NCBI GenBank assembly: GCA_016212705.1
Contig: JACREU010000015.1
Location: 1-35,012 of the forward strand
Length of the DNA stretch: 35,012 nucleotides
Reading direction: 5' to 3'
Source of the DNA: Deltaproteobacteria bacterium
GTDB taxonomy: Bacteria; Desulfobacterota; GWC2-55-46
In this document: in pieces, positions 25,864 to 35,012 of the stretch
How the letters are laid out: each line of letters starts with the position of its first letter
Numbering within the stretch: position 1 is the first letter of the stretch
Notes under the pieces: generated by a model
The model's database searches: none
Seen by the model: only the letters and a program-made list of their open reading frames with translations
Told to the model about the DNA's origin: nothing
Position numbers and translations under genes: made by a program

Positions 25864-25915
25864 TTTATATCGCCTGTGCTTGTTGACTTCTGCATAAGTA
25901 GACAATAGAGCAATC

Positions 25916-26008
25916 TGTCATTCCCGCGATCTTTTAAGCGGGAATCCAGCGTTTTAATGCTTGATAACGACCAAAACCGGATTCCCGATTAAAACCTCGG
26001 GAATGACA
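25916..26008. repeat. repeat family A: inverted pair of GGGAATGAC hairpin units
   Basis: Bounded by TGTCATTCCCG (25916-25926) and CGGGAATGACA (25998-26008). Each half is itself a hairpin: CATTCCCGC with GCGGGAATCC, and GGATTCCCGA with TCGGGAATGAC. The same units, arranged in the opposite order, lie at 34516-34599. Such CTGGATTCCCG/CGGGAATGAC units are common dispersed palindromes in bacterial genomes. This one lies between two genes of the ABC operon. Confidence 0.85.
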
Positions 26009-26024
26009 ACCATGGGATGTTAAC

Positions 26025-26104
26025 TCCTCCCCTTTACAAGGGGAGGTTGGGAGGGGTCTTGAAGCGAAGGCGACCTCCCCCGGCCCCTCCTTGTAAAGGA
26101 GGGG
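26025..26104. repeat. repeat family B: intact 80-bp imperfect palindromic element
   Basis: Starts TCCTCCCCTTTACAAG and ends CTTGTAAAGGAGGGG, with internal GGGAGGTTGGGAGGGG and CCTCCCCCGGCCCCTCC. The whole element can fold on itself and each end is also a small hairpin. A second copy, interrupted by a MITE-like insertion, is at 34441-34724. It lies between the permease and ATPase genes, 7 bases from the permease stop codon. It may be transcribed as part of the operon and could affect the mRNA. Confidence 0.85.
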
Positions 26105-32737: not shown

Positions 32738-34399
32738 ATGATATCTTTTAAAAAAAGTCTCAGGGCGAAGTTCACCCTGATACTCTTCGTGGTCGGTATA
32801 GTCCCTCTTGCCGCCACATCCATATTCTTCTATTACACCGCCAAGGACGCGCTCTTCAAGAACGTCTTCAAGGAGCTCAAGTGGAACGCCGACGAAATAT
32901 CTGGCGTCGTAGAGTCCCACTTTTCGGATACCGGCAAGGACCTCCTTATAGCCTCCCAGAACACCGCGTTCAACATGTACTTCCTGGACCCCGCGAACAG
33001 AATGAAGTGGGTAAGGGAGCAGCAGAATACGCTAAAGTACCTCCGTACCGTCTATCCGGACGTCCTCGACGAGGCCTGCTTCATAGACGCGGCCGGACAG
33101 GAGGTCTCAAGGATAGTCTTTGACGAGCTCGCCCACGAGCACGAGCTTTCCTCCGAGGAGGGCCGCTCGGAGTTCTTCAAGGGAGCGTTCCTCCTTGAAA
33201 AGGGAGAGGTATTCCAGGGCCGCCCCATGATATCCGAGGACACGAAGAGGTGGGTCCTCCCGAACGCGACCCCCATCGTGGTGAACGGGAAAAAAGCCGC
33301 GATCCTCCACTTCGAGGTCACGATGACCTATTTTCAGCGCCTCCTTAAAAGCCTCATAAACCCCGACCGCGGCTACGGCTTCATATTGAACGACGAGGGC
33401 GCCTTCATGGCGCACACACGCCTTGATATGAGCGAGAAGGACCCGTTTCCCGCCGCGATAATACCGGGGGTGCCGCCCGCGCTCGAGGCCATCTACAAGA
33501 GGATGATGAACGCCGAGAGCGGGATAGAGGAGTTTGCGGAAGGCGGCGAGAGCTACTACATCATCTTTAGGCCCATAAACATCTCTTACCAAAAGGGCAG
33601 GAACGAAAACATTTGGTCGCTCGCCTACGTCATCCCGAGCGAGAGGGTCTACGTCGAGCTCTCGATACTCAAGTACAACGTGATAGTCGTCGCCTCTACC
33701 GTCCTCTTCATAATAGTCCTCGCCTACGCGGTCGGCAACTACGTGACGAAGCCGATAAGGGAGCTCGCCGGGGCGACGAAGAGGGTCGCCGGAGGCGAGA
33801 TGCCCAAGGTGGACGTGAAGCGCGACGACGAGATAGGCCAGCTCTCGGACTCCTTCAACATCATGGTCGATGCGGTAAAGAGGAGGGACGAGGCGTTGAA
33901 TGCCCTGGCTATAACCGACGGCCTGACGGGCCTTTATAACCACAGGTACTTTAAATCCGAGCTTGACAGGCACGTCAAAGCGGCACAGAGGTTCTCGCGC
34001 CCGCTCTCGCTCATTATCGCGGATATCGATTACTTCAAGCACTACAACGACAGGAACGGGCATGCGCAGGGCGATGTGGCGCTGAAGGCCGTCGCCTCCG
34101 TATTCATGAAGAGCGTGCGCGAGGTGGACATGGCCGCGAGGTACGGAGGGGAGGAGTTCGTGGTGATACTCCCGGAGACGCCCATGGAAGGCGCGCTTGT
34201 CGCCGCGGAGCGCATAAGGAAGAAGGTCGAAGAAGAGCCTGTCCTGAACGAGGAGACACAGCCTAACAACAGGCTTACGGTCTCGATAGGTGTCGCCACC
34301 CTGAAAGACGGCGACGATATGCTTAAGTTGATCGAGGCCGCAGACCAGGCCCTTTACAGGGCCAAGGATGGGGGGAGGAACAGGGTGGAGGGGGCGTAG
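32738..34399 (+). CDS. membrane sensor diguanylate cyclase (Cache-HAMP-GGDEF)
   Basis: Makes c-di-GMP from two GTP. 553 residues: membrane helix 1 (about 11-33), a periplasmic Cache-like sensor (about 40-300), helix 2 (313-335), HAMP (336-388, starting with TKPIRELAGATKRVAGGEM), and a GGDEF domain (392-550). The active site is ARYGGEEF (GGEEF at 470-474), so it should be active. The product-inhibition I-site RxxD is present as REVD (461-464), exactly five residues before the motif. The ligand of the sensor is unknown. GGGGCGGAAAG precedes the ATG. It probably has its own promoter in the gap after the rpoD terminator, but I could not pick a convincing one. Confidence 0.92.
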   Translation: MISFKKSLRAKFTLILFVVGIVPLAATSIFFYYTAKDALFKNVFKELKWNADEISGVVESHFSDTGKDLLIASQNTAFNMYFLDPANRMKWVREQQNTLKYLRTVYPDVLDEACFIDAAGQEVSRIVFDELAHEHELSSEEGRSEFFKGAFLLEKGEVFQGRPMISEDTKRWVLPNATPIVVNGKKAAILHFEVTMTYFQRLLKSLINPDRGYGFILNDEGAFMAHTRLDMSEKDPFPAAIIPGVPPALEAIYKRMMNAESGIEEFAEGGESYYIIFRPINISYQKGRNENIWSLAYVIPSERVYVELSILKYNVIVVASTVLFIIVLAYAVGNYVTKPIRELAGATKRVAGGEMPKVDVKRDDEIGQLSDSFNIMVDAVKRRDEALNALAITDGLTGLYNHRYFKSELDRHVKAAQRFSRPLSLIIADIDYFKHYNDRNGHAQGDVALKAVASVFMKSVREVDMAARYGGEEFVVILPETPMEGALVAAERIRKKVEEEPVLNEETQPNNRLTVSIGVATLKDGDDMLKLIEAADQALYRAKDGGRNRVEGA

Positions 34400-34434: not shown

Positions 34435-34455
34435 GAGATATCCTCCCCTTGCCAA

Positions 34456-34649
34456 GGAGACCTTGGTACAACTGCGTCTCTCGTCAAATTTTTTTTGCGC
34501 GCTGATTTCAAGATACTGGATTCCCGCTTGAAACGCGCGGGAATGACAGTATTATAAGTGTTTTGCATGTCATTCCCGAGGTTTTTATCGGGAACCCAGT
34601 CCTGAAAAACTCGATGTCATGCAGACATACGGGTTATGCAAAGGTCTCC
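34456..34649. mobile_element. 194-bp MITE-like element with TIRs and 7-bp target duplication
   Basis: The ends are GGAGACCTTGGTACAAC (from 34456) and, read on the minus strand from 34649, GGAGACCTTTGCATAAC: 14 of 17 positions match, the first nine perfectly. It is flanked by identical TTGCCAA at 34449-34455 and 34650-34656. Removing the element and one TTGCCAA restores a family B repeat, which fixes the insertion boundaries. No coding sequence is inside; it contains two family A hairpin units (34516-34548 and 34568-34599). It would have to be moved by a transposase encoded elsewhere. Confidence 0.8.
34516..34599. repeat. repeat family A: hairpin units in opposite arrangement
   Basis: A forward unit (CTGGATTCCCGC with GCGGGAATGACA, 34516-34548) is followed by a reverse unit (TGTCATTCCCGA with TCGGGAACCCAG, 34568-34599). 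In the copy at 25916-26008 the reverse unit comes first. Both units are inside the MITE-like element. Confidence 0.8.
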
Positions 34650-34748
34650 TTGCCAAAGGGAGGCAGGGTGGGGTGATTTTAATTCAGAGACGACCTTCCC
34701 ATGCCCCTCCTTGGTAAGGAGGGGTGAAGACACTTTTACTAAAGGTCA

Positions 34749-35012
34749 TTTTGCGCCCTGCCGGGCTTTTTTTCGGCATAGGGATTCGCTCCCGTCGCCC
34801 TACCCATCCCCCGCTCGGCGTACGGCCAATTTCAAATCGGGTCACTTAAGTCTACCTGAAGCACAGTTGTCCGATACGGATTTGTCAGTCCGGCGAGGTA
34901 CTTGGCGTACGGCCAATTTCAAATCGGGTCACTTAAGTCTACCCGAAGCACAGCTGTCCGATACGGATTTGCCAGTCCGGCGAGGACCGCTCGCCTCTTA
35001 GGGCGCTGTCGC
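34749..35012. repeat. repeat family C copy, interrupted and cut by the window edge
   Basis: 34749-34816 matches the left part of the element at 27376 onward (TTTTGCG, then CGGCATAGGG at 34774-34783 and TTCGCTCCCGTCGCCCT), and 34993-35012 matches its continuation (TTAGGGCGCT). The two parts are separated by a tandem repeat (34817-34986) with the 6-base direct repeat CCGCTC on each side (34811-34816, 34987-34992). The right terminal inverted repeat, if present, lies beyond the window. Confidence 0.65.
34817..34986. repeat. two tandem copies of an 87-bp repeat
   Basis: Copy 1 at 34817-34903 and copy 2 at 34904-34986 both begin GGCGTACGGCCAATTTC and differ by only three substitutions (all T to C from copy 1 to copy 2) before the end of copy 2, which lacks the last four bases. 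The period is 29 codons, so any open frame through it also repeats, but no ribosome site or known domain supports a gene. Confidence 0.88.

Follow-up and report, generated by a model that had tools for sequence, protein, structure and literature searches.

The window analysed here, a stretch of DNA of 35,012 nucleotides, is contig 51 (C51) of the 1.98-Mb assembly of a groundwater deltaproteobacterium (G000). Near its end lies a composite repeat, in which a palindromic repeat of the family denoted B is split by a gene-less element of 194 bp (34456–34649, forward strand). The gene directly upstream (32738–34399) encodes a dCache-HAMP-GGDEF protein of 553 aa, likely a membrane diguanylate cyclase, and the composite repeat is immediately followed by an 87-bp unit (GGCGTACGGCCAATTTCAAATCGGGTCACTTAAG...) in nearly two tandem copies that are 96% matching (34817–34985).

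The ends of the 194-bp element read GGAGACCTTGGTACAAC and GTTATGCAAAGGTCTCC and are complementary at 14 of 17 positions, a value that was reached by 4 of 200,000 segments of the same length drawn at random from the window. The right terminal inverted repeat (34633–34649, reverse strand) is the intact reverse complement of the family end GGAGACCTTTGCATAAC, whereas the left one (34456–34472, forward strand) is degraded relative to that form; with respect to the GAGACCTTTGCA ends of the BrickBuilt/ATR type, the right end is intact, too, and the left one is degraded beyond GGAGACCTT. The element is directly flanked by two exact copies of TTGCCAA, a 7-bp target-site duplication (TSD; 34449–34455 and 34650–34656). 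The coordinates, the length, the 14 of 17 end match and the TSD had been reported by a reading of the sequence alone, and all were exactly reproduced on recomputation. There is no open reading frame of 100 aa or longer inside the element which, together with the flanking arms, folds into a single long hairpin (z = −8.1); an Rfam scan of the window matched no family. All the hallmarks of MITEs are present, namely, a length of 50–450 bp, no transposase gene, inverted ends, a TSD, dispersed copies and filled/empty polymorphism (for the latter two, see below), and the segment 34456–34649 is a MITE with IS5-type ends inserted in a family B palindrome.

The palindrome that is split, of the kind exemplified by CTCCCC-TTTACAA-GGGGAG, is the left arm of the family B repeat: half of it, with one copy of the TSD, remains on the left (34442–34455), and the remainder of the repeat follows on the right (34657–34724), both on the forward strand. 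Removal of the element along with one TTGCCAA gives a rejoined sequence of 82 bp. As the sequence-only reading had maintained, this form aligns with the uninterrupted, insertion-free family B copy at 26025–26104 (forward strand; 61 of 79 positions identical); it does so better than the filled form (score 39 vs 32), and it aligns best with the copy at locus L013 (72 of 81 identical; score 60 vs 53 for the filled form). That a precisely bounded, TSD-flanked MITE is nested in family B is confirmed. The further claim that the insertion is proven by an empty-site relative was an overstatement: the copy at 26025–26104 is a paralogue rather than an orthologous empty site, and the orthologous locus in the closest relative, a genome of the same genus described below, contains neither family B nor the MITE.

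Copies of the element and orthologous loci

The sequence-only reading had made its case depend on the existence of other copies, and three more were found in the same genome, 193 or 194 bp long and 95–98% identical (contigs C106, C92 and C7); the genome-wide counts given here for G000 are based on pattern searches. All four near-full copies sit within a family B arm, those on C51 and C106 in one orientation relative to family B and those on C7 and C92 in the opposite one, and the direct flanking 7-mers differ between copies (TTGCCAA, TTGCTAA and TTGTAAA). Given the two orientations, the different TSDs and the fact that most family B copies lack the 194-bp interior, family B does not contain the inner sequence as a fixed component, an eventuality that the same reading had named as fatal to its interpretation. 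The family B parts of the C51 and C106 composites are alike at 63 of 75 aligned positions and thus less alike than the MITEs, which are 96.4% identical; this fits separate insertions rather than copying of the composite.

The copy on C92 (L003:1501–1721, that is, G000:C92:7854–8074) has no direct duplication; its flanking loops are reverse complements of each other (TTGTAAA/TTTACAA). The simple insertion model does not explain this arrangement, so that one insertion or a later rearrangement falls outside the model; inversion of the loop or recombination between copies could be responsible. As a general rule for the elements, the inverted loop was rejected, the inverted 7-bp identity being 3.34 against the expectation of 3.28 from re-paired flanks.

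In another genome of the same genus (G003), the loci orthologous to those on C51, C92 and C23 (the last holding a shorter relative of the element) were located via flanks that are 90–95% identical. The element is absent from all three, which bears out the filled/empty polymorphism anticipated by the sequence-only reading. At the C51 locus, family B is missing as well as the MITE, so that it is only from the nesting that we infer the order of events, that is, family B first and the MITE second. At another locus in G000 (L032, approximately 1490–1560; G000:C25:143058), a lone intact GGAGACCTTTGCATAAC end is found in CCCCTTTACAA next to an unrelated interior and may be what is left of a longer insertion sequence.

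Palindromic targets of elements with the same ends

An exact search of genome contigs for AAGGAGACCTTTGCATAAC returned 72 stretches, from Deltaproteobacteria, Nitrospinota, Chloroflexota and a few other groups. Among 59 genomes of relatives, the ends were present in 10 and a reversed control pattern in none. The pattern used for the genome contigs, and one other, led with AA and therefore favours TTNNNAA centres, although not G/C stems; the pattern used for the 59 relatives and one further pattern are free of this bias. From all loci, 61 distinct paired elements of 57–420 bp were gathered. An exact 7-bp TSD flanks 25 of these, compared with an expectation of 0.98 from left and right flanks re-paired among elements; the mean identity of the 7-bp flanks is 4.84, against 3.23 for re-paired flanks, with a maximum of 3.74 in 2000 shuffles. 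Another 25 of the 61 elements have no exact TSD of at least 2 bp, presumably as a result of decay or mis-pairing of ends. The TSD is 7 bp long here (TTNNNAA) and 4–5 bp in some relatives, the whole group spanning 4–8 bp.

What stands out most in the family is a tendency to insert on palindrome axes. A stem of at least 5 bp is found at the insertion site in 69% of 29 rejoined targets, compared with 7–8% of random sites. Where the stem is at least 6 bp long (23 targets, two full-length insertion sequences included), the axis lies within 1 bp of the TSD centre in 20 cases and coincides with it exactly in 12. Examples of such targets are CTCTCCTCC-TTACCAA-GGAGGAGAG and GATTCCCGC-TTTC-GCGGGAATG, the latter holding a Dehalococcoidia MITE within the loop of a GGGAATGAC hairpin. 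Elements with the same ends also occur in palindromes unrelated to family B. The 4-bp and 7-bp TSDs belong to different phyla and could reflect different transposases rather than a read-out of loop length. Two Dehalococcoidia MITEs (L155:4173–4306 and L182:1662–1788) have ends of the same type and are located in the 4-nt loop of a GGGAATGAC hairpin; in both, the 4-bp TSD is the hairpin loop itself.

A candidate mover: IS5-family transposases

Full-length insertion sequences with such ends were found outside the host genome. An insertion sequence in a Chloroflexota genome (L157:161–1353), with the same ends at a distance of 1193 bp, encodes an IS5-family transposase (NF033581, E = 1e-85; PF01609 and PF05598), and the TSD of this insertion sequence, TCAA, lies on the axis of CCCTCTCCC-TCAA-GGGAGAGGG. 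In a second genome of the same class (G055), related ends flank a transposase that is 30% identical (L211). Among plasmid sequences annotated as IS5 family, the insertion in Rhizobium (L331) has the ends GGGACTGTTGCA and lies exactly on the axis of CACTTCTCCC-CGACG-GGGAGAAGTG, and the one in Moraxella (L332) has the ends GAAACCTTTGCA...TGCAAAGGTCTC and the TSD TATGA, with no palindrome at the target site; two other plasmid records annotated "IS5 family transposase" (L333 and L334) have no such ends. An IS5 derivative is marked by ends that recur in an insertion sequence coding for a DDE transposase of the IS5 family; L157 and, with near-identical ends, L332 provide this.

A search of the G000 assembly, which is 86% complete, for an NF033581 (IS5_4) transposase found none, that is, no autonomous partner in the same genome, so that the copies may be stranded, or else the gene may reside in the missing 14%. 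A MITE can outlive its partner and, therefore, the missing partner lowers the probability of the IS5 assignment without excluding it. The search for a transposase gene with matching ends, proposed by the sequence-only reading, succeeds for insertion sequences elsewhere, such as L157, and not in G000; with no such gene found in the assembly, we infer the mobilization of the G000 copies by an IS5-type transposase. In the same-genus genome G001, the ends are found at eight contig edges, four per end type (GGAGACCTTTGCATAACTC and ...CATAACTA), all in family-B-like arms with CTCCCC-TTGTAAA-type targets; judging from these end sequences, they are consistent with a multicopy insertion sequence left unassembled. 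One of the G001 ends encodes MERMMHKRMGQMSLSDVLVDSRNIFLSDVDGLV, a 33-residue N-terminus that, by its sequence, looks like that of a transposase. This peptide had no match in 395 genomes of the phylum, NCBIfam or plasmids, and a search for the body of the insertion sequence by its end in 63 genomes of the class returned contig edges only.

Some other family of DDE transposases might use these ends in the genus, in which case the link to IS5 would be a coincidence; indeed, the genus's own transposase was not recovered, and the only readable part, the N-terminal fragment from G001, matched no family. We consider this very improbable because an IS5-family transposase lies between such ends in the independent full-length cases L157, L211 and L332 and because the ends of ISNme1 and ISPg1, as published (PMC4596501), tie such ends to IS5.

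The MITE is thus probably mobilized in trans by an IS5-type transposase with a preference for palindrome axes. The explanation that we consider very probable as a whole is that of a non-autonomous element nested in family B: an IS5-family DDE transposase would act in trans on ends of the type GGAGACCTTTGCATAA, would favour the axis of short palindromes rich in G/C as its insertion site, and would duplicate the central bases of the target (7 bp here, 4–5 bp in some relatives). Palindromes of this kind are present in family B repeats, hence the nesting of the MITE in them. The directly observed part of this explanation comprises the copies, the exact ends and TSDs, the two orientations and the absence from orthologous loci, as well as the palindrome-centred targets and the transposase between the same ends elsewhere; the palindrome itself, as a sequence or as an extruded hairpin, would be the recognized feature.

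Judged by their ends, the closest published relatives are BrickBuilt of Porphyromonas gingivalis and the ATR MITE of Neisseria (PMC4596501). The authors of that paper matched the BrickBuilt ends (GAGACCTTTGCA/TGCAAAGGTCTC) to the IS5-family ISPg1/ISPg9 as well as to ISNme1, from which ATR is proposed to derive. Like the 194-bp MITE, BrickBuilt has similar ends, is gene-less and is intergenic, and it is proposed to have trapped and spread an internal repeat; unlike it, BrickBuilt has an interior consisting of a 23-nt tandem repeat and irregular TSDs (CT, GAAA or an A-run), and the passages of PMC4596501 considered report no targeting of palindrome axes. ISNme1 (IS1106, IS5 family, Neisseria meningitidis), compared here by its published ends only (GAGACCTTTGCAAAA; PMC4596501), tends to occur near REP sequences (PMC1525189); unlike the insertions of the present family, this is a "type 2" nearby association only, with no axis insertion shown. 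Insertion sequences that insert at REP palindromes have been known since 2006 (PMC1525189). ISRm22 resembles the present family in that it inserts on the axis of REP palindromes and has direct repeats of 6 bp (PMC1525189) but is filed under IS4, whereas the group described here is IS5-type, has TSDs of 4–8 bp and includes many MITEs. Chunjie of Geobacter uraniireducens, likewise a deltaproteobacterium, is a MITE of 178–235 bp with conserved ends, direct repeats and truncated copies; the likeness is one of description (PMC10969869).

Palindromes carried by the element

The interior of the MITE contains two GGGAATGAC hairpin units, one on the forward strand (CTGGATTCCCG...CGGGAATGACA, 34516–34548) and the other on the reverse strand (TGTCATTCCCG...GGGAACCCAG, 34568–34599), which are oriented towards each other and base-pair when the element as a whole is folded. 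Among 50 elements chosen by their ends alone, 37 have an interior GTCATT/AATGAC motif, compared with an expectation of 3.6 based on dinucleotide shuffles; the motif is spread over several palindrome types (GTCATTCCCG, GTCATTCTGAG, GTCATTGCGAG and GTCATTTCGAG), so that the association is real and general. This count suggests, without proving it, that MITEs help carry such palindromes. The proposal of the sequence-only reading that the MITE may be the means by which the GGGAATGAC palindromes are dispersed holds in part: an end (up to 4 mismatches) is located within 160 bp in 12 of the 38 G000 loci that contain CGGGAATGAC, compared with 0.1% of random positions, but the remaining 26 have no end nearby, and three relatives (G006, G008 and G054) possess the hairpins with no ends at up to 2 mismatches. 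The MITE carries such palindromes; a role as their main vehicle goes beyond this evidence. The GGGAATGAC hairpins of the MITE resemble dRS3, ATTCCC(N8)GGGAAT, in which Neisseria is rich (PMC3898611).

It could also be that what moves is the hairpin pair itself, as a REPIN mobilized by a RAYT transposase, and that the GGAGACC ends are incidental. The MITE does hold two facing REP-like hairpins, the paired inverted arrangement of a REPIN, which is also seen in an outward-facing pair elsewhere in the window, and many of the 55 exact CGGGAATGAC sites in the genome lack the ends. Nevertheless, no Y1_Tnp/RAYT gene (PF01797) was found in G000, the precise TSDs are at the GGAGACC ends rather than at the hairpins, and different interiors are found in other elements with these ends, which together make this origin very unlikely. 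Least likely of all is that the interior is a constant, original part of a longer palindromic repeat of 222 or 284 bp, from which short family B copies arose by deletion: C106 does hold a near-full composite copy, and the BLAST matches on C92 and C7 extend to 222 bp, beyond the proposed ends, but the extra bases are only the shared family B arm, same-ended elements sit in unrelated palindromes, most family B copies have no such interior, and the two orientations relative to family B, with different flanking 7-mers, rule out the 284-bp composite as one element.

A broader proposition can be put forward tentatively, as a possibility that we ourselves doubt: a group of IS5-family transposases in several phyla would recognize palindrome structure in its targets, perhaps as an extruded hairpin, and duplicate the bases at the centre; as a result, its MITEs would systematically colonize REP-like repeats and repeatedly carry GTCATT-type palindromes. 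If true, a single targeting rule would build the repeat landscape of these genomes. The findings connect a class of unnamed intergenic repeats of uncultivated bacteria with an identifiable transposase of the IS5 type; they also yield a testable rule, namely, that insertion occurs on palindrome axes and duplicates the central bases. Literature searches by repeat sequence turned up nothing about the GTCATTGCGAG or CTTTACAAGGGG repeats and, for GTCATTCCCGC/GGGAATGAC, mostly unrelated sequence coincidences. Each ingredient is already known; the combination of IS5-type ends, axis-centred TSDs of 4–8 bp and a GTCATT interior across phyla was not found described in the literature searched, which is weak evidence given that subscription papers were little covered.

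The outward-facing (GTCAT) pair of GGGAATGAC hairpins in the window (25915–26008, about 90 bp) adjoins the intact family B copy; pairs of this kind recur at other G000 loci and differ in arrangement from the inward-facing pair of the MITE. In G054 (for example, L072), at least nine 58-bp matches to the hairpin part have identical scores, with no GGAGACC ends found, which suggests another recently spread repeat.
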